From NCBI GenBank assembly GCA_024231905.1, contig JAAEQC010000157.1:27930-91929 (forward strand): a DNA stretch of 64,000 nt, read 5' to 3'. The position numbers and the translations under genes are program-made. The notes under the pieces were generated by a model. It was not told the DNA's origin. It saw nothing but the letters and a program-made list of their open reading frames with translations, and searched no databases. Source of the stretch: a bacterium (GTDB taxonomy: Bacteria; Krumholzibacteriota; Krumholzibacteriia; LZORAL124-64-63). Positions 29,108-56,098 of this stretch are shown piece after piece; within the stretch, counting starts at the first letter, position 1; each line of letters opens with the position of its first letter.

Positions 29108-29648
29108 CGATTCCCTCCGCGCGCGCGAGCATGGAGAACCTCGCCGCAGCCTGCGACGGTCGCCAGCACCGGAGGAGCCAAGGCAAGGCGTCTGGAAGGC
29201 GGCCCCAGTCCCTTGGCGCGGCGTGCATGATCTGCTCCTTTTCGGTGGCGAGCATCTCGAGGTCGGCCTGTTTGATCCGGGGATCCTCGTAGTCCGCCGG
29301 CCAGCGCCTGGCCACAATCTGCTCGGCGTGCGTCATCTCGTCGGAGATATCAGCGAACTCCGGCAGCCGTTTGAGCGGGGCAGGGATGTCGCAGATGATG
29401 ATTTCGGCGGCGTCGTGAAGCAGGGCTCCAATGCGGACATCGCGGGGAGCTCCAAGCTCGGCCACCCGGCGGTGGACCAGCACCGAGTGCTCGGCGACAG
29501 AATAGAACCGGAGGCAGTGCCCGTTGAACCGACACTGCATCGATAAACTATGGGCGACTGAATCGATCCCCAGGCCGGTCAGGCTTGGCGAGTCGTAGTC
29601 GTAGGCGAACCCTCCATGGAGTTGGATCCATCGGCTGCTATTTTTCAT
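29100..29648 (-). CDS. HD-domain phosphohydrolase (YfbR-like)
   Basis: RFYSVAEHSVLVHRRVAE...GALLHDAAEIIICDIPAPLKR. Confidence 0.88.
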   Translation of the reverse strand: MKNSSRWIQLHGGFAYDYDSPSLTGLGIDSVAHSLSMQCRFNGHCLRFYSVAEHSVLVHRRVAELGAPRDVRIGALLHDAAEIIICDIPAPLKRLPEFADISDEMTHAEQIVARRWPADYEDPRIKQADLEMLATEKEQIMHAAPRDWGRLPDALPWLLRCWRPSQAAARFSMLARAEGIDV

Positions 29649-30012
29649 CGGTTGCTCCAATCTTCTGGTGCTTCCCCACCCACTTCGCAATCATATCGAG
29701 GGGCGATGAAACGGTTGATACCCACCGACCTTGATCGCATGCCTTGCCCGCGGGTCCGCCGGCCTGAAACTCGAGGTGCTTCCGGAAGGAGTCGAAGGTC
29801 GCACCGTGCTGTAGGCCGATGGAGATAGCCATCGCCATCGCATCATAGACCGCGGCGGCCGGGTCTCTGGTGCGAACAAACAGTTCGCCGATGCGACCAT
29901 CGTCGTAGTACCCAGCGGTGAGATCGTAGTCGTAGTCTTGGCTGCCATCGACGATGGTCAGTCGAGCATTGATCGCTCTGCGCTCCGCGGGGAGCCTTTC
30001 TCTTTCAGGCAT
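29638..30012 (-). CDS. stand-alone TSCPD-domain protein (ribonucleotide-reductase C-terminal-type domain)
   Basis: LTAGYYDDGRIGELFVRTRDPAAAVYDAMAMAISIGLQHGATFDSFRKHLEFQAGGPAG...SPLDMIAKWVGKH. Confidence 0.75.
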   Translation of the reverse strand: MPERERLPAERRAINARLTIVDGSQDYDYDLTAGYYDDGRIGELFVRTRDPAAAVYDAMAMAISIGLQHGATFDSFRKHLEFQAGGPAGKACDQGRWVSTVSSPLDMIAKWVGKHQKIGATDEK

Positions 30013-31035: not shown

Positions 31036-31301
31036 GTTCGGCACCAACCCCCTCCAGGCCGCTGGGCCATGCGATTGCCGGCGGCGTCGTAGGAGTACTT
31101 CCCAGTGCCGATGCAGGTCGGGCAGCGACGGCGGCCGAGTCGGCCGCGGCCGTCGCACTCCCCGCAGACCTTCAGTCCTTCCCGCAGACCCTGGCTCCAA
31201 TTCGAATCGATTGGATCGAGGACTATATCCGGGCATCGTATCTCCTGCCCAGGGCGAAGGGTCTCGTGAAGTGGGCGGCGTTGTTTCTCACTCCGGTCCA
31301 T
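31032..31301 (-). CDS. Zn-finger (DnaJ CxxCxGxG-like) small protein
   Basis: VCGECDGRGRLGRRRCPTCIGTGKY. Confidence 0.6.
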   Translation of the reverse strand: MDRSEKQRRPLHETLRPGQEIRCPDIVLDPIDSNWSQGLREGLKVCGECDGRGRLGRRRCPTCIGTGKYSYDAAGNRMAQRPGGGWCRT

Positions 31302-32595
31302 CGTTGAAGCTCCTTTCGAGCACCCCGCGGACCTGCCCGCGGGTGTTGTCCCAGCTCATCCCGAACCAACCCTGGGGGCCGTCCTTTGCTTTGGCGACGT
31401 TGATCCACATCTCGCCTGGGTCGGCTTTCGCATAGCGCGCGACCTGCTCCCGGTAGTAGTGCGGGCGGAAGACGAACGAGATCACATCCGATGTCTGCTC
31501 GATGGACCCGGACTCCTTGAGGTCCGAGAGCCGAGGCTTGCGGTTGTCCCGCTTGTCGATCCCGCGGGTGAACTGCGAAAGCGCGACCAACGAGAGCTTC
31601 GGCTCCTCGCGGCACACCGACTTCATCGTGGAGATGAGCTGGTTCATTTCCTTGCGGGGCTCCTCGTTCTCAATACACTCCTGCAGGTGGTCGACGATAA
31701 CAATGGTGATCCCGTCCTGCTGCCTGCGCTTCCGGATCTCCTGGGCCATCGCTGCGGAGCGGTCGTTCTCGTCGTCGACCCATATAGCTTTCTCGTGGAT
31801 CTTGCTGGCACCGCGGGCCATCGCCTTCCAGGTCTCGGTCGAGTCATTTCCATAGCCAAACTCGCGGCTGTTTAGTCCGCCGGCCTTCGCCAGGAATCGC
31901 CTGGCGACCTTCCTGGTTTGGGTCTCAGTGGAGAACAGTAAAATCCGTTCGCCTTGCTCGGCCCAGTTCTCTGCGAGGTGCTGCATGAAGGCCGACTTCC
32001 CCATTGAGGTGGCGCCAGCGATAGTCAACATGCCTCCTCGTGGAAGCAGCTGGTGAGCATCGAGGGCTGGGATCCCGGTCAGCACCTGCGACGACCCCTC
32101 CCCCTTCTCCCTGCGCTCCGCCTCGTTGAGCAGCTCGCCGACCGCATCGGTGAGTCGAACCGCTCCGCCTTGGCTCTTCCCTGCCACCCCGTTGAACGCT
32201 GTCATGGCCTCGGCGAGAAGCTGCGGGCCGCGCTTCCCAGACTTCATGAGGCCTTCGGCTATCAGCCGGCACTTGCGGTCCATCGCCGCGTTCTGGACGA
32301 TTTCAACGGATCGCGGTACCTCCCAGGCGAACGAGGAGAAACGAGACAGCTCCTCGATCTCCATCATATCCAGGGCCCGGCCCTTGTTGGCCTCAGTCCA
32401 GTCGGCGATGGATAGAACGTCCGGGGTGATGCCCTCGTCCCAAAGATCAGTGATGGCCTCGAGCACCCGGCGAGGAACCGGGAGGGTGAGTTCATCCAGG
32501 CCAAGCTTCAGCGAGTGGAACTCTTGTGGCCTCAAAAGCAGGGCGCCGATGACAGCCTTCTGGGCTTGCTCGTGAGCGGGCTCGCGGTCGCTCAT
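31288..32595 (-). CDS. dnaB: DnaB-like replicative helicase
   Basis: EQAQKAVIGALLLRPQEF...LTIAGATSMGKSAFMQHLAENW...VIVDHLQ...ALSQFTRGIDKRDNRKPRLSDLKESGSIEQTSDVISFVFRPHYY. Confidence 0.95.
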   Translation of the reverse strand: MSDREPAHEQAQKAVIGALLLRPQEFHSLKLGLDELTLPVPRRVLEAITDLWDEGITPDVLSIADWTEANKGRALDMMEIEELSRFSSFAWEVPRSVEIVQNAAMDRKCRLIAEGLMKSGKRGPQLLAEAMTAFNGVAGKSQGGAVRLTDAVGELLNEAERREKGEGSSQVLTGIPALDAHQLLPRGGMLTIAGATSMGKSAFMQHLAENWAEQGERILLFSTETQTRKVARRFLAKAGGLNSREFGYGNDSTETWKAMARGASKIHEKAIWVDDENDRSAAMAQEIRKRRQQDGITIVIVDHLQECIENEEPRKEMNQLISTMKSVCREEPKLSLVALSQFTRGIDKRDNRKPRLSDLKESGSIEQTSDVISFVFRPHYYREQVARYAKADPGEMWINVAKAKDGPQGWFGMSWDNTRGQVRGVLERSFNDGPE

Positions 32596-33266
32596 GGGGC
32601 CCCCGACAAGAGATCATCGGCCGACGGTCGCCATGGCTCGTCCGGCTCCACCCGCTCGGTCCCGCGCGCGACCCCCAGGTGCTCTCCAAATTTCTCTCCG
32701 TAAAGCCTCGACGGGACCAGCATGGTCGCCCTCCAATCCTTCTCCCCTGGAGCGGCGCGGGGCCAATTCCGATCCGCCCACCGGTTGACGGTTTTGATGT
32801 CCTCGATGGTGTATCCGTCGACGAGCAGCTGGGCCACCAGCTTCCGGACCGCCTTCGAGAAGGTTGGAAAACCCGTGCCGCATTCCTCGTTGAGATGGGT
32901 GATCACCTCTCGGACAAACGGCTCTGAAACCGGCGGGGGCTCGGTGCCCATCAGCTCCGCCTGGCCTCTCGCGCGATTCTTACTCTCTCTCTTGTTCTTC
33001 CTCTTCTCTTCTCCGGAAGAAGAACTCTTACGCGCGCGTTCGTATGTGCGGCGTCGTTCAGTCGGAGCTGAATCAGCTCTGTTTTCAAGCTGTTCCAGCG
33101 CTGAAACAGCGCTGTTTTGGCGCCGTTTTAGCTTCGAAATACCTACACGTAGGCCTTCCCTGAATATCACCCTGAGCATGGCCGCCATCTTCCTGTCGGT
33201 GTCCTTCGCCAGGAGGCGGACCTGGTCGCGCTCTTCCTCGCTCATGTCGATTCCGTATCGGGGCAT
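32592..33266 (-). CDS. replication-initiation-like protein with conserved phage C-terminal (Phg_2220_C-type) domain
   Basis: VREVITHLNEECGTGFPTFSKAVRKLVAQLLVDGYTIEDIKTVNRWADRNW...DWRATMLVPSRLYGEKFGEHL; N-terminus MPRYGIDMSEEERDQVRLLAKDTDRK; adjacent to DnaB. Confidence 0.8.
   Translation of the reverse strand: MPRYGIDMSEEERDQVRLLAKDTDRKMAAMLRVIFREGLRVGISKLKRRQNSAVSALEQLENRADSAPTERRRTYERARKSSSSGEEKRKNKRESKNRARGQAELMGTEPPPVSEPFVREVITHLNEECGTGFPTFSKAVRKLVAQLLVDGYTIEDIKTVNRWADRNWPRAAPGEKDWRATMLVPSRLYGEKFGEHLGVARGTERVEPDEPWRPSADDLLSGAP
33066..33142. repeat. 11-bp iteron-like repeats inside the rep gene
   Basis: consecutive 11-mers AGCTGAATCAG CTCTGTTTTCA AGCTGTTCCAG CGCTGAAACAG CGCTGTTTTGG CGCCGTTTTAG CTTCGAAATAC; same family as 6413-6456. 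Confidence 0.7.
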
Positions 33267-33284
33267 CTGCGCTAACCCTGATCC

Positions 33285-33389
33285 GTCCGTGCCCGGGCCC
33301 GGCCCCAGAGGCGTGACACTCGGCGGGTCGCCGGGGCACCGGGGCACGGACAGATCAAGCTTTGAATTTGAGGGTTTCGAGTGTCACGC
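33285..33389 (-). promoter_or_regulatory. interleaved inverted repeats in rep leader (possible pseudoknot)
   Basis: GCGTGACACTCG/CGAGTGTCACGC (33311-33322 with 33378-33389) and GTCCGTGCCC/GGGCACGGAC (33285-33294 with 33342-33351), order A-B-A'-B'. Confidence 0.65.
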
Positions 33390-33394
33390 TTCGG

Positions 33395-33423
33395 ACCATA
33401 CCCACCCGTCGGACGGGTGTCAA
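33395..33423 (-). promoter_or_regulatory. sigma70-type promoter for rep/dnaB operon with palindromic operator in spacer
   Basis: minus strand TTGACA-17nt-TATGGT; spacer region carries ACCCGTC-C-GACGGGT. Confidence 0.8.
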
Positions 33424-33430
33424 CTTCTTC

Positions 33431-34927
33431 TCAGTCGCCCGGCTCCTCTTCCTGGGTCGGCTCGGCGGCATCCTGAACCGGGGGCGGTTCCTCGGCTGTC
33501 AGCGTCGCCTTCATCGCGGCGATGATCTGCAGGCATTGCTCGGCCTCCCATTTTGAGGACTGCCCGGCGGTGACTCCGAGCTCGACCGCCAGCTCCCGAA
33601 CCTCGTCCCAGCTCATGTCCATCCCCTTCCGCAGATCCTTGAGCTGCTTGAGGGCGTCGGCCTGGGTGACCGACGGAGCCTCTTCCTGCTCTTCGGGCGG
33701 CGGCTCCTCTGGTTGGTCGGCAGGCGGTTCTGGATCTTTGGTGGTTGCCGGAGGGGTGGCCGGCGCCCCGTCGCGGAGCTCGTCGAGGCCCTTGCCGATG
33801 ATCTTGCAGTCGGCCGTCGTCCACAGCGACGAGTCCTGAGCCTTCTCTTCCCCGATCCGATGGGCGACGAACCCGCGAAAAGAGTCCTTGTCCACGTCGG
33901 CGGGGGCCTTCGGGTCGCAGTCGGTTATCTTCGCCCAGCGATTCCACAGGCGGCCTGTCTGCGCCTTGGTGGCCTTGCGTGGCTTTGTGGTCGCGGCGGT
34001 CGAGGCCTGAGGCTTCTTGGGCTCCCTGGCCGCTGTGGGCGGCGAGGCAGGGGAACCAGCGGGCAGGGCGGGGGCGGAGGTGGTAGATGGGACATCGATC
34101 ACGCCGGCGGCCTGATCTCGAAACCCGTCCGACCGAGTAGCCGACACCTGCCGGAGCTCATCGAATGGCGGGGAGTCAGCGTCGTGCTGCAGCGCCTCGA
34201 CGAGGTCGGTGGACTTCGGCACCTCGGCCGCCGAGCAGAGTGCCCGGATGGCAGTCTTGCGCGCCATCTCTGGGAACCAGTCGTCCCACGGGGTTCTCGA
34301 GTTGTACCGCTTGGCCTGCTGGACGGCCTGGGAATTGTCGCGCCGCTTCTCGATCTGGTCGAGGCGCAGCATGCGCTGGACCCGGTCGCCGTTCTTCAGG
34401 ATGACCAGCGCGTATGCGGCGACCAGGTGCTTGTCAGCATAGTCCTCTTTGCTCGCCAGGATGTTGGGGCGGTGGACAATGTCCGGGGGCTCATCCGTGA
34501 TCGTGAAGAGGCCGTGCTCTACCTCGTGGCGATAGACCACCCCGGAGTTCATCCGCGCAATCTCCCCCGAGTTCCGGACGAGCTGCGCCAGCCCATTCTT
34601 CCCGAACATCACCTTGCACTCCATCACGCCCTGCTTGCGGTTGTTGAACGGGATCAACCAAGCAAAGCCCTGCGGGGTGTTGGGCGGCAGCCCGAGCTGG
34701 CTGCAGAGCATCATGCTCGTGAGCAGGCTCGATTCGGTGCACTTGAGCAGCTTCTCGTTTTGGCTGCCGAAGGTCTGGACGACTCGGATAATCGTTTCGG
34801 CCTTGATGTGCGTCGGCAGGACCGTGTCGAGTCGAGGCGCGACGGCCTCGAGGAAGTGGCCGAAGTTGGCGGGCGGGCGAGCGGACTGCTCGATCCGCGC
34901 GATGGCGGTTTCGTCGACGGTTGTCAT
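33431..34927 (-). CDS. recT: RecT-family ssDNA-annealing protein with long Pro/Ala-rich C-terminal extension
   Basis: MLCSQLGLPPNTPQGFAWLIPFNNRKQGVMECKVMFGKNGLAQLVRNSGEIARMNSGVVY...NSRTPWDDWFPEMARKTAIRAL. Confidence 0.93.
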   Translation of the reverse strand: MTTVDETAIARIEQSARPPANFGHFLEAVAPRLDTVLPTHIKAETIIRVVQTFGSQNEKLLKCTESSLLTSMMLCSQLGLPPNTPQGFAWLIPFNNRKQGVMECKVMFGKNGLAQLVRNSGEIARMNSGVVYRHEVEHGLFTITDEPPDIVHRPNILASKEDYADKHLVAAYALVILKNGDRVQRMLRLDQIEKRRDNSQAVQQAKRYNSRTPWDDWFPEMARKTAIRALCSAAEVPKSTDLVEALQHDADSPPFDELRQVSATRSDGFRDQAAGVIDVPSTTSAPALPAGSPASPPTAAREPKKPQASTAATTKPRKATKAQTGRLWNRWAKITDCDPKAPADVDKDSFRGFVAHRIGEEKAQDSSLWTTADCKIIGKGLDELRDGAPATPPATTKDPEPPADQPEEPPPEEQEEAPSVTQADALKQLKDLRKGMDMSWDEVRELAVELGVTAGQSSKWEAEQCLQIIAAMKATLTAEEPPPVQDAAEPTQEEEPGD

Positions 34928-35730
34928 CGGGAACTCCTGTTGAGTGAGATGGTTTGCCTGGTGCCGCTGTTCGCTGGCCAGGCGTTGTTGTCGTTGCAGA
35001 CCTTGAAGGTCTCGAGGTGTTCGGCGATCATGATCCACGCCTCCACCAAGTCGTTCTGCTTGAGATCATAGATTTGGACGCCGTGCGCGGGCTGGTCCCG
35101 GGCGGTGATCCAGCCCCACTGGTCGTGTACTTCGCCGGTGAGATACGTGAGGGCCTCGCAGTAAAGCCCGGCCTGCCAGTCCTGGTTCAAGCGGAAAACC
35201 TGGCGGCGCCATCCCCGCGGGGTGATGTCTCCTGTCACCTTCAAATCCCAAATACACGGAGGATCCCAGAGGTCGAGACGACCCTTCAGGAGCAGCTTGG
35301 TCTTCGGCTCTTCCCAGAGGAACGACACTTGGGATCGGCTGCGCGCGAGGATCTCCGCAACCTCCGGGGCGGACTGTACAGCGTCGGCGATGGCAAACAC
35401 CCGGTCCCACATCTTCACCGGCAGAGCGATCTTGTCGCCGTTCCGGAGTAGCTCGATGGTGAATTTCATCGTTCCGGGGCTGCGTTTCACCCCCACCGGG
35501 AGACGGAAGAACTGTGAATGGAACTCTGCAAGGCCATCGAAGATGAGAACGTCTACCGCCGACCCAACGATCATTGGATCCGTCGGAATGAAGTCGTCAC
35601 GAACTGAAAGCCAGTGACGGTACTGAGCAGGGGATTCTGCGAGGTGTCCGAGCCCCGACTTCGATAGGGCGTCCCACTTCAGGTAGTCGACAAATGGAAC
35701 GTTGAAGTAGATGCCGGGGGCTGGAGTCAC
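34924..35730 (-). CDS. RecE-like PD-(D/E)XK exonuclease (GTG start)
   Basis: VDYLKWDALSKSGLGHLAESPAQYRHWL...KGRLDLWDPPCIWDLKVTGDITPRGWRRQVFRLNQDWQAGLY; adjacent to recT; GTGA overlap with 35727..35954. Confidence 0.85.
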   Translation of the reverse strand: MTPAPGIYFNVPFVDYLKWDALSKSGLGHLAESPAQYRHWLSVRDDFIPTDPMIVGSAVDVLIFDGLAEFHSQFFRLPVGVKRSPGTMKFTIELLRNGDKIALPVKMWDRVFAIADAVQSAPEVAEILARSRSQVSFLWEEPKTKLLLKGRLDLWDPPCIWDLKVTGDITPRGWRRQVFRLNQDWQAGLYCEALTYLTGEVHDQWGWITARDQPAHGVQIYDLKQNDLVEAWIMIAEHLETFKVCNDNNAWPANSGTRQTISLNRSSR

Positions 35731-53896: not shown

Positions 53897-56098
53897 TTAT
53901 GCGGCCAGCTCGAGATCCTCGCTGATCTCGATGACGATCCAGTAGGCGGGCTTGGCTTTGGCCACGCCGACCTTGCCCTTGAGCTTGTTGGCCTTGATGA
54001 CGTCCGCGGTGTTCAGCGCGTCGCCGAAGTCGACGAAGAACGCGGTGGCCGGGATCTTCGTTCTGAATGCCCCGACGTCCATCTCGGCCTTCAGGATCCC
54101 GCGCACCGTTCTGGTGAGCTGGTCACGAAGCTCCGGGGTGTTGTCGTCATGGACGTTGTTCCGAACCGTCAGCTTGATCAGCCGCTCGATGTGGCTCATC
54201 CCGCGCCGCTCGCCGACGCTCGCAAACAGCCCGGAAGTCTTGAGGCACTTCGGGCCGTCGATATGCGGCTGCGTCCCGGACCAGGTGGTCAAGGGGTTGA
54301 TGTTGGACGGGAAAACGATGTCCCGCGTTGTCTTGTCGAGTACCGTGTCGGTCTCGAACTTCGAGACCCCGACGAGCTTGCCGCGGACGGTGCCTGCGGG
54401 GGCCTTGTGGACCCCGCCCTCAACATCCCGGTCGGTGCGAACGTAGACCCCGGCGATGGCGCCGCTGGGCGCGATGGTGATGTTGCCATCGACGTCGCTC
54501 GTGAAGACGGTGGGCGACGGGTTCTGGACGTTCACCTGCGGCCAGTAGATGGCGGCGTTCTCGGTGAGGTCGTAGAGGCTCGCCGTGGTGCGAACGTAGG
54601 TCCGCATCTGGAGCGCCGTCTGGGCGGCGGGCGGATCCAGGATGGCAAAGACCTGCTTTGCCCGGGTGGTCTCCGCGTAGGTCACCATCGAGTTGTGCAC
54701 CGCCGAGGTGGCGCGGCCCGGGACCGCCAGGATGGTGAGGTCGTCGACCGTGTCCAGCGCGAAGATCCCGGTCTTGCCGGTGGAATCGCCCTGGTAGTCG
54801 GCGTCGATGATGCCAGCAAGGCCGTCGTTCCCACCAGTGAGCGCGTAGTCGCCGTTGGTGGGTCGGTTCGCTGGCGGCACACCCGTGAGCGAGTCGGCCA
54901 ACGTGATCCGGATCGAACCGGTTTGCAGGTGGTTGACCACGGTCAGCCAATAGTTGGAGTTGGCCACGACGGTGGACAGGGAGTAGAAGGTCTCCTTGAC
55001 CACGCCGCTCTCGAGGATCTGCAGGTTGAACTCGTCCGAGTCCCCGCTGGTGGCGGCGGCGATCCGCACCACCACATTGTTGCCCCACGCACCGTCGCTG
55101 TAGGCGGTGGCGGTGCCGGTTGTTCCGGGCCCCGCGGCGGTGCCGGCGTGCACGGCGTTGTCGAGGTCGAATTTGGCGGCGTCATCCGCCGTGGATGTCG
55201 CATCGACCTGGATGCTTCCGGAGGCCCCGACGGTCGGGGTCTTGATCGAAATCTCGCCGGTCCCCTCGACGGTGACCTGGGCCGTGGTGTCGGCCTCGAT
55301 GATGGTCTTCGCCTCGGCAGCGGTGACGGCATCGATGTCCGCGACGTCGCCGGTGCCCTGATTCACGCCCGTGGCGATGTCGAGGGTGGCCCGACCGGTG
55401 CCGCCGGTGACCTCCACGTAGGACGCGGTGCCGCGCTTGTCGGAGGTGATCCGAACTTCGCCACCATCATCGTCGGCGAACCCGCCAGCGAGCTGCGCGT
55501 TGATCTCAGAGAGCACCACCGCAATGGTGGTCGCGGCGGCGGTGAAGGTGATCGTCTGGATCACTCCGCCGTCGATCTTCACTAGCAGTGTCTCGCCGCC
55601 CGTGAAGCCGGTGGGGAAGGTTCCGGCCGTCCCGGAAACCGTTCCGGCGGCGGCGTCGAACGTCGCTGTCTGGGTCGCTCCTGCGTCGACTTTCACGATC
55701 ACCGTGTCGCCGGGCTCTAGATTGAAGGTCTCCGTGTTCCCGGAGGTCTCCACTCCCTGGGTGGCGGCGCCCGTGGTGGTGATCGCCTTGGAGGCGGACA
55801 CCGAGGTTTTGGTGCTGGCGTCGGCGGGATCGGTGTAGTGGCACGTCCGGGCGACCCACAGGAACCCTCGGCCGCAGTTTTTGAAGAAGAAGTACGCGGC
55901 GACCGTCAGGTCGGCGTTGGCGGTGAACCCGCCAAACTTCTCCAGGTACTCGTCCCAGCTGGTGACGAGGGTGGCTCCGTATGGGCCGCGCTCGGCGACG
56001 CCCACCATCCCCACAACCGCGGTTGCCAGCGACGGGGCAGTGATCGCTGCCGGTGGCTTCTCGTCGATGACTACGTCAGATGCCAGAAAGTCGGTCAT
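53897..56098 (-). CDS. contractile tail sheath protein with large insertion
   Basis: PSLATAVVGMVGVAERGPYGATLVTSWDEYLEKFGGF...; C-terminal RGMSHIERLIKLTVRNNVHDDNTPELRDQLTRTVRGIL. Confidence 0.93.
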   Translation of the reverse strand: MTDFLASDVVIDEKPPAAITAPSLATAVVGMVGVAERGPYGATLVTSWDEYLEKFGGFTANADLTVAAYFFFKNCGRGFLWVARTCHYTDPADASTKTSVSASKAITTTGAATQGVETSGNTETFNLEPGDTVIVKVDAGATQTATFDAAAGTVSGTAGTFPTGFTGGETLLVKIDGGVIQTITFTAAATTIAVVLSEINAQLAGGFADDDGGEVRITSDKRGTASYVEVTGGTGRATLDIATGVNQGTGDVADIDAVTAAEAKTIIEADTTAQVTVEGTGEISIKTPTVGASGSIQVDATSTADDAAKFDLDNAVHAGTAAGPGTTGTATAYSDGAWGNNVVVRIAAATSGDSDEFNLQILESGVVKETFYSLSTVVANSNYWLTVVNHLQTGSIRITLADSLTGVPPANRPTNGDYALTGGNDGLAGIIDADYQGDSTGKTGIFALDTVDDLTILAVPGRATSAVHNSMVTYAETTRAKQVFAILDPPAAQTALQMRTYVRTTASLYDLTENAAIYWPQVNVQNPSPTVFTSDVDGNITIAPSGAIAGVYVRTDRDVEGGVHKAPAGTVRGKLVGVSKFETDTVLDKTTRDIVFPSNINPLTTWSGTQPHIDGPKCLKTSGLFASVGERRGMSHIERLIKLTVRNNVHDDNTPELRDQLTRTVRGILKAEMDVGAFRTKIPATAFFVDFGDALNTADVIKANKLKGKVGVAKAKPAYWIVIEISEDLELAA

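Follow-up and report, generated by a model that had tools for sequence, protein, structure and literature searches.

The stretch of DNA analysed, called the window here, covers 64,000 nucleotides and is part of a phage within a 4.6-Mb bacterial assembly. Phage genes found in it encode a tail sheath, a tape measure protein, a baseplate, an endolysin and a serine-recombinase-type integrase/invertase. Of interest is an operon with the order RecE-like exonuclease, RecT, a leader, the replication initiator gene rep and a DnaB-like helicase. The RecE-RecT-rep-DnaB synteny is also present in a related phage, IMG/VR 3300005253_000050 (termed L026), which was reached via its tail sheath (85% identical). 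The features of the locus, in the order read on the minus strand, are the following.

33431-35038, minus strand: RecT-like ssDNA annealing protein, encoded 5' of the leader; 62% identical in the related phage
33395-33423, minus strand: predicted sigma-70-like promoter, TTGACA-17-TATGGT, a 10/12 consensus match, 3' of the RecT stop codon
33378-33389, minus strand: 5' arm of helix A, at the predicted transcription start
33360-33377, minus strand: loop L1, an A/C-rich linker of 18 nt from A to B
33342-33359, minus strand: 5' arm of helix B at its extended length; begins with a conserved CUUGA, which pairs with the Shine-Dalgarno (SD) sequence
33323-33341, minus strand: loop L2, 19 nt from B to A'; can pair with L3 as an inner B stem
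33311-33322, minus strand: 3' arm of helix A (A'); in both phages the B stem can hold it in its apical loop
33295-33310, minus strand: loop L3, 16 nt from A' to B'
33277-33294, minus strand: 3' arm of helix B (B'); contains the AGG (33279-33277) of the likely SD, AGGG (33279-33276)
32592-33266, minus strand: rep, phage gene for a replication initiator whose C-terminal domain is of the Phg_2220_C/TIGR02220 type; identity to the related phage is 64% over the C-terminal part
31288-32595, minus strand: DnaB-like replicative helicase, downstream of rep with a 4-nt overlap; 69% identical in the related phage

Rep carries the PHROG annotation 'replication initiation protein' and shows a weak Arc-like (ribbon-helix-helix) match at the N-terminal end; its AlphaFold model (pLDDT 53) is too poor for use. 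The interior of rep (33067-33132) contains six consecutive 11-bp units near GCTGTTTCAGC, namely GCTGAATCAGC, TCTGTTTTCAA, GCTGTTCCAGC, GCTGAAACAGC, GCTGTTTTGGC and GCCGTTTTAGC, of which Tandem Repeats Finder detects parts only. As steps of 11 bp do not fit whole codons, these units look like iterons of an intragenic origin, and can be likened to the lambda O gene, where the origin lies inside the initiator gene. The matching part of rep in L026 (4193-4270) has repeated GGGCACC motifs, different in sequence, and is a candidate origin. Two further features of the window stand out: a 124-aa open reading frame (29638-30012) that matches vitamin B12-dependent ribonucleotide reductases in their C-terminal region, and an unusually long tail sheath of 733 aa (53897-56098), which belongs to PHROG 15814, with its function listed as unknown.

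The promoter upstream of the leader is of a quality that occurs 0.1 times per 1.2 kb in shuffled sequences. The earlier note had put the transcription start at about 33388, and the promoter agrees, placing the predicted start at about 33389-33387; helix A would thus constitute the very first nucleotides of the transcript. This start is a prediction from the consensus match. The aligned promoter of the related phage, TGGACA-17-TAGCTT, is weak and was missed by the promoter scanner. In both phages helix A begins exactly 5 nt past the -10 box or -10-like hexamer. The spacer of the window promoter also carries a perfect 8-bp dyad, CACCCGTC-G-GACGGGTG (33403-33419), a candidate operator that is unique in the window at up to 3 mismatches and absent from the related phage. 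A scan of the opposite strand of the leader for antisense promoters, limited to the sigma-70-like type, found none. An intrinsic terminator in the leader was considered and rejected, as the leader is without a U-run.

The earlier note had described two inverted repeats that fill the rep leader in the interleaved order A-B-A'-B', and all four arms are present in the sequence at the positions it gave, in that order on the rep-sense strand. The 5' arm of A (33389-33378, GCGTGACACTCG, minus strand) is complementary to A' (33322-33311) over 12 of 12 bp, and 33351-33342 is complementary to 33294-33285 over 10 of 10 bp. The full extent of helix B proved larger than the 10 bp first described. It consists of CUUGAUCUGUCCGUGCCC (33359-33342) paired with GGGCACGGACGGAUCAGG (33294-33277), a helix of 18 bp with 16 Watson-Crick and 2 G-U pairs on the rep-sense strand. 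With this extension, the element ends 10 nt before the rep ATG and not about 19 nt before it, and helix B takes in AGG of the AGGG found 9 nt upstream of the ATG.

How unusual is such an arrangement? A/B is the sole interleaved pair of exact inverted repeats in the 64-kb window where both repeats are at least 9 nt and lie within 120 nt. In second-order Markov sequences of 64 kb, 0.08 interleaved pairs are expected with both repeats at least 10 nt long, and the 10 + 12 combination was found in none of 60 runs. When G-U pairs are allowed, no dinucleotide-shuffled version of the leader, out of 1000, attains the observed A/B score; this score (32, sense strand) is the highest of the whole window, the next site on either strand reaching 24. 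The suggestion that the repeats are not explained by a coding constraint is also supported. An in-frame GTG extension of rep is present in the window phage (33347-33266), but in the related phage the rep reading frame lacks any ATG, GTG or TTG until 4029, immediately downstream of B', which makes a coding constraint unlikely.

The related leader (L026:3915-4028) has approximately 54% identity to the window leader in a gapped alignment, above that of 300/300 shuffles, and its arm sequences are largely different. Helix A is represented by TTGCGATGCCA and A' by TGGCATCGCAA, with 11/11 pairs and an arm spacing of 53 nt, compared with 55 nt in the window phage. Helix B consists of CUUGACCCUCCCGG, a bulge and then CCUCGCG, which pair with CGCGAGGACCGGGGGGGCCGAG. 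Counted in nt from the start of A, the arms lie at 0-11/67-78 (A) and 30-47/95-112 (B) in the window phage and at 0-10/64-74 (A) and 34-47/92-105 (B) in the related phage. The interleaved pairing of the related leader scores above 1000/1000 of its own shuffles. The best-conserved stretch is the end of L1 together with the start of B, AAATYYAARGCTTGA; over the 3' part of L1 and the start of B, AAATTCAAAGCTTGA, 12/15 positions match the related phage. In the related phage, the initiator gene starts with TTG and its SD (GAG) is poor.

The earlier note had proposed a covariation search in related phage leaders, and the one leader found has kept both helices with compensated changes. MAFFT puts B' in the wrong place when it aligns the two leaders, and the comparison therefore followed the register of the helices. 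In this register 25 pairs have a counterpart: 11 differ on both sides and yet pair, 3 differ on one side via G·U, 10 are identical and one is broken (A·C), in what is one comparison of two sequences, the only two found in the collections searched. Non-Watson-Crick pairs on the sense strand number five in the two phages together, 4 G-U and 1 A-C. In a neutral simulation that started from the window leader and went to 55-70% identity, only 0-0.1% of runs kept an interleaved pair as good as that of the related phage. The order expected of an H-type pseudoknot, A-B-A'-B' on one strand, is accompanied by compensatory change in the two phages. The earlier note had left a choice between a pseudoknotted RNA and paired operator sites. 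The RNA reading now gains strong comparative support from the 11 compensated pairs, the register of A at the predicted start, the sense-strand G-U pairs and the location of the SD inside helix B, and the operators are disfavoured. That the leader forms a real RNA structure, with its pairing conserved in a second phage, is well supported by this sequence comparison.

Searches with Rep, RecT and DnaB in viral contigs, and with Rep and RecT in genome contigs, gave only this one related leader, and no further one was found among 80 genomes of the phylum, phages and plasmids. Scanning directly for the patterns of the A or B arms produced matches at chance level, with no excess over a rough estimate; the B-arm match that was inspected is located in unrelated sequence. 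The more distant rep genes (L028, L029) are without such a leader. No comparable element was seen in six other phages (L043-L048); in those with an annotated initiator, it usually abuts the upstream gene. In G040 a different gene comes after RecT, and a rep leader is absent. An unrelated viral contig (L035, 2291-2450) has a cluster of repeated, inverted TGCACCCGTG/CACGGGTGCA sites that resembles an operator or origin array.

What role might interleaved helices have at this position? The CUUGA with which B begins is paired to the SD in both phages, to AGG in the window phage and to GAG in the related one. The predicted probability of being unpaired is about 0.01 for each of A, G and G in the window phage and 0.03-0.09 in the related phage, i.e. 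the SD is 99% versus about 95% paired. When A and A' are held open, the B stem presents A' in an apical loop of 16 nt (window) or 15 nt (related). In predicted folding of the growing transcript, A:A' forms first (-28.2 kcal/mol in the window phage, -22.4 kcal/mol in the related phage), and the B stem forms after B' is made. In the window phage, the stacking sum of both helices is -64.7 kcal/mol before any pseudoknot penalty, versus -63.3 kcal/mol for the best nested fold, so that pseudoknot and nested fold are close. In the related phage, A (-22.2) and B (-40.5) give -62.7 kcal/mol versus -49.9 kcal/mol for the nested fold, which makes a pseudoknot likely there in the folding model. With L1, L2 and L3 of 18, 19 and 16 nt, the loop lengths permit both helices at once.

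A scheme can be drawn from these predictions. The first 12 nt of the rep-dnaB transcript (A) would pair with A' once A' is transcribed, and B, then in the loop of the A:A' hairpin, would next pair with B'. As B' contains the SD, the SD would be locked in an 18-bp helix, and A:A' and B:B' together would constitute an H-type pseudoknot. Alternatively, the B stem might extend inward, with A' left in the apical loop and A freed. With either outcome, translation of the initiator would be low or only briefly open. Relief would come from opening or masking helix B by a ribosome on the leader, by a bound protein (e.g. Rep or RecT) or by RNase III; an opening factor has to be assumed, as the B stem alone is very stable. 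The leader is thus read as a 5'-terminal cis-acting RNA, either a pseudoknot or a switch between A:A' and B:B', that would hide the rep SD and hold back or time translation of the initiator, with a probability of about 0.68. Control of rep translation by the leader, the choice between pseudoknot and switch, and the trigger that might open helix B are inferences.

Could the two helices be alternatives? In a mutually exclusive switch, A:A' with the SD open would alternate with an extended B stem with the SD closed, and the order of folding would give a short window for translation. The nested energies fit, with A:A' first and the B stem winning after B' is transcribed, and the inner B stem can reach A' in both phages. 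The loop lengths, however, permit coexistence, the summed stacking equals or exceeds that of the nested fold, and nothing forces A:A' and B:B' to exclude each other; a strict switch is therefore a tenable but somewhat doubtful reading. A role in mRNA stability or processing is less probable, though possible alongside SD sequestration. With A at the predicted start, the 5' end would be double-stranded and could block 5'-dependent decay, and B plus the inner stem is long enough to be an RNase III site, but this gives no reason for the end of B to fall on the SD in both phages. Coupling to a leader peptide is also possible but weak. A short open reading frame that starts in A would end at the start of B, so that the ribosome terminating there would cover B and leave the SD open, and R1-type plasmid rep genes are described as employing a leader peptide (PMC10724649). 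Frames of this kind are present in both leaders, GTG 33387 to TGA 33355 in the window (10 codons, VTLETLKFKA) and TTG L026:3915 to TGA 3953 in the related phage (12 codons, LRCHPEPQKSKA); both end in the conserved GCTTGA, and masking B frees the SD in the related phage (0.88-0.97 unpaired). Masking B in the window phage, however, leaves the SD mostly paired (0.02-0.42 unpaired), the frames are without an SD and start at or near the 5' end, the two peptides are unlike each other, and frames this short are likely to arise by chance.

The repeats may also be viewed as DNA, with A/A' and B/B' as interleaved inverted sites for phage regulators, e.g. the N-terminal domain of Rep, in the control of rep transcription. 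The odd palindrome GTGACAC within A, the weak Arc-like match in Rep and the perfect dyad in the promoter spacer are in keeping with this, and operators of related phages often differ in sequence. Yet neither A nor B has another copy at up to 1 mismatch in 64 kb, the related A has no other copy in 30 kb of the related genome, and the spacer dyad is missing from the related phage. What the arms keep is their complementarity, at a fixed position relative to the predicted start, and not their sequence, and B needs sense-strand G-U pairs to reach 18 bp. Paired operators are thus considered unlikely. Least probable is that no function has been selected and that the complementarity is maintained by quasi-palindrome mutation. 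Template switching within inverted repeats can alter both arms together in the absence of selection, and the comparison consists of two sequences; but the process would have had to affect two interleaved repeats simultaneously in both lineages while leaving spacing, promoter register and SD overlap intact, and G-U intermediates persist.

Few replication genes are known to have their translation governed by a pseudoknot: the T4-type gene 32 among phages and the IncI-like plasmid rep genes. If the interpretation is correct, there would be a second phage lineage that keeps interlocked helices over an initiator SD even though many letters of the arms have been exchanged, and a clean, testable case of RNA control of the onset of phage replication. 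As it is mainly the pairing that is conserved, such elements can escape homology searches. It is tentatively proposed that the leaders represent a new class of phage RNA, where the 5' end of the transcript is complementary to the apical loop of an SD-hiding stem, only structure is conserved, and replication is timed by RNA folding or by the phage's own replication proteins.

How does the leader compare with known systems? Rfam release 15 has no match in the window at the gathering cut-off, and a permissive search gave only microRNA models for the window leader (23.9 bits versus a cut-off of 91) and none for the related leader. Self-cleaving ribozymes and riboswitches were rejected, there being no Rfam match and the loop sizes being unfit for an HDV-like core. 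The lambda cIII and N leaders hide or expose an SD by alternative or RNase III-sensitive folds, much as is proposed for the rep leader; they are not interleaved, and the genes differ. Among the nearest working analogues is the T4-type gene 32 leader (T4, T2, RB69; PMC535899, PMC3014915), where a 5' pseudoknot precedes a phage DNA-replication gene and the requirement is for structure over strict sequence (PMC535899). Given the predicted start of rep, both transcripts would open with a pseudoknot, and both belong to phage replication genes. The gene 32 pseudoknot, however, is about 28 nt with small stems and lies about 67 nt upstream of the start codon, whereas the rep element is about 112 nt with helices of 12 and 18 bp. 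The gene 32 SD lies outside, in an A+U-rich stretch, and gp32 binds the pseudoknot; in the rep leader the SD is inside helix B, the element is a prediction and the gene encodes an initiator. UUAAA repeats with an unstructured SD 3' of the pseudoknot are absent after the rep leader, and Rep is a Phg_2220_C initiator and not an SSB, unlike in the gene 32-type operator. Membership in the gene 32 type is thus rejected on the position of the SD, the missing repeats and the nature of the gene.

In the IncI-alpha, IncB and IncL/M plasmids, a pseudoknot in the repZ or repA mRNA leader is described as gating translation of the initiator (PMC10724649). The likeness lies in a pseudoknot in the leader of a replication initiator mRNA; the helices here are much longer, and hosts and genes are unrelated. 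IncI-type rep control depends on an antisense RNA as well as a leader ORF, and its pseudoknot has an activating role. Short frames are present in both phage leaders, with no SD and no peptide conservation. The Escherichia coli rpsO (S15) operator is a further case where a leader pseudoknot is reported to control translation of the downstream gene (PMC3014915). It binds a ribosomal protein through conserved recognition features, and the rep leader is unrelated to it in sequence or gene. Two alternative folds around the ribosome-binding site are part of the rpsO system. The rep leader is best classed as a predicted mRNA-leader pseudoknot over a translation start, a functional analogue and not a member of the T4 gene 32 and IncI repZ families.
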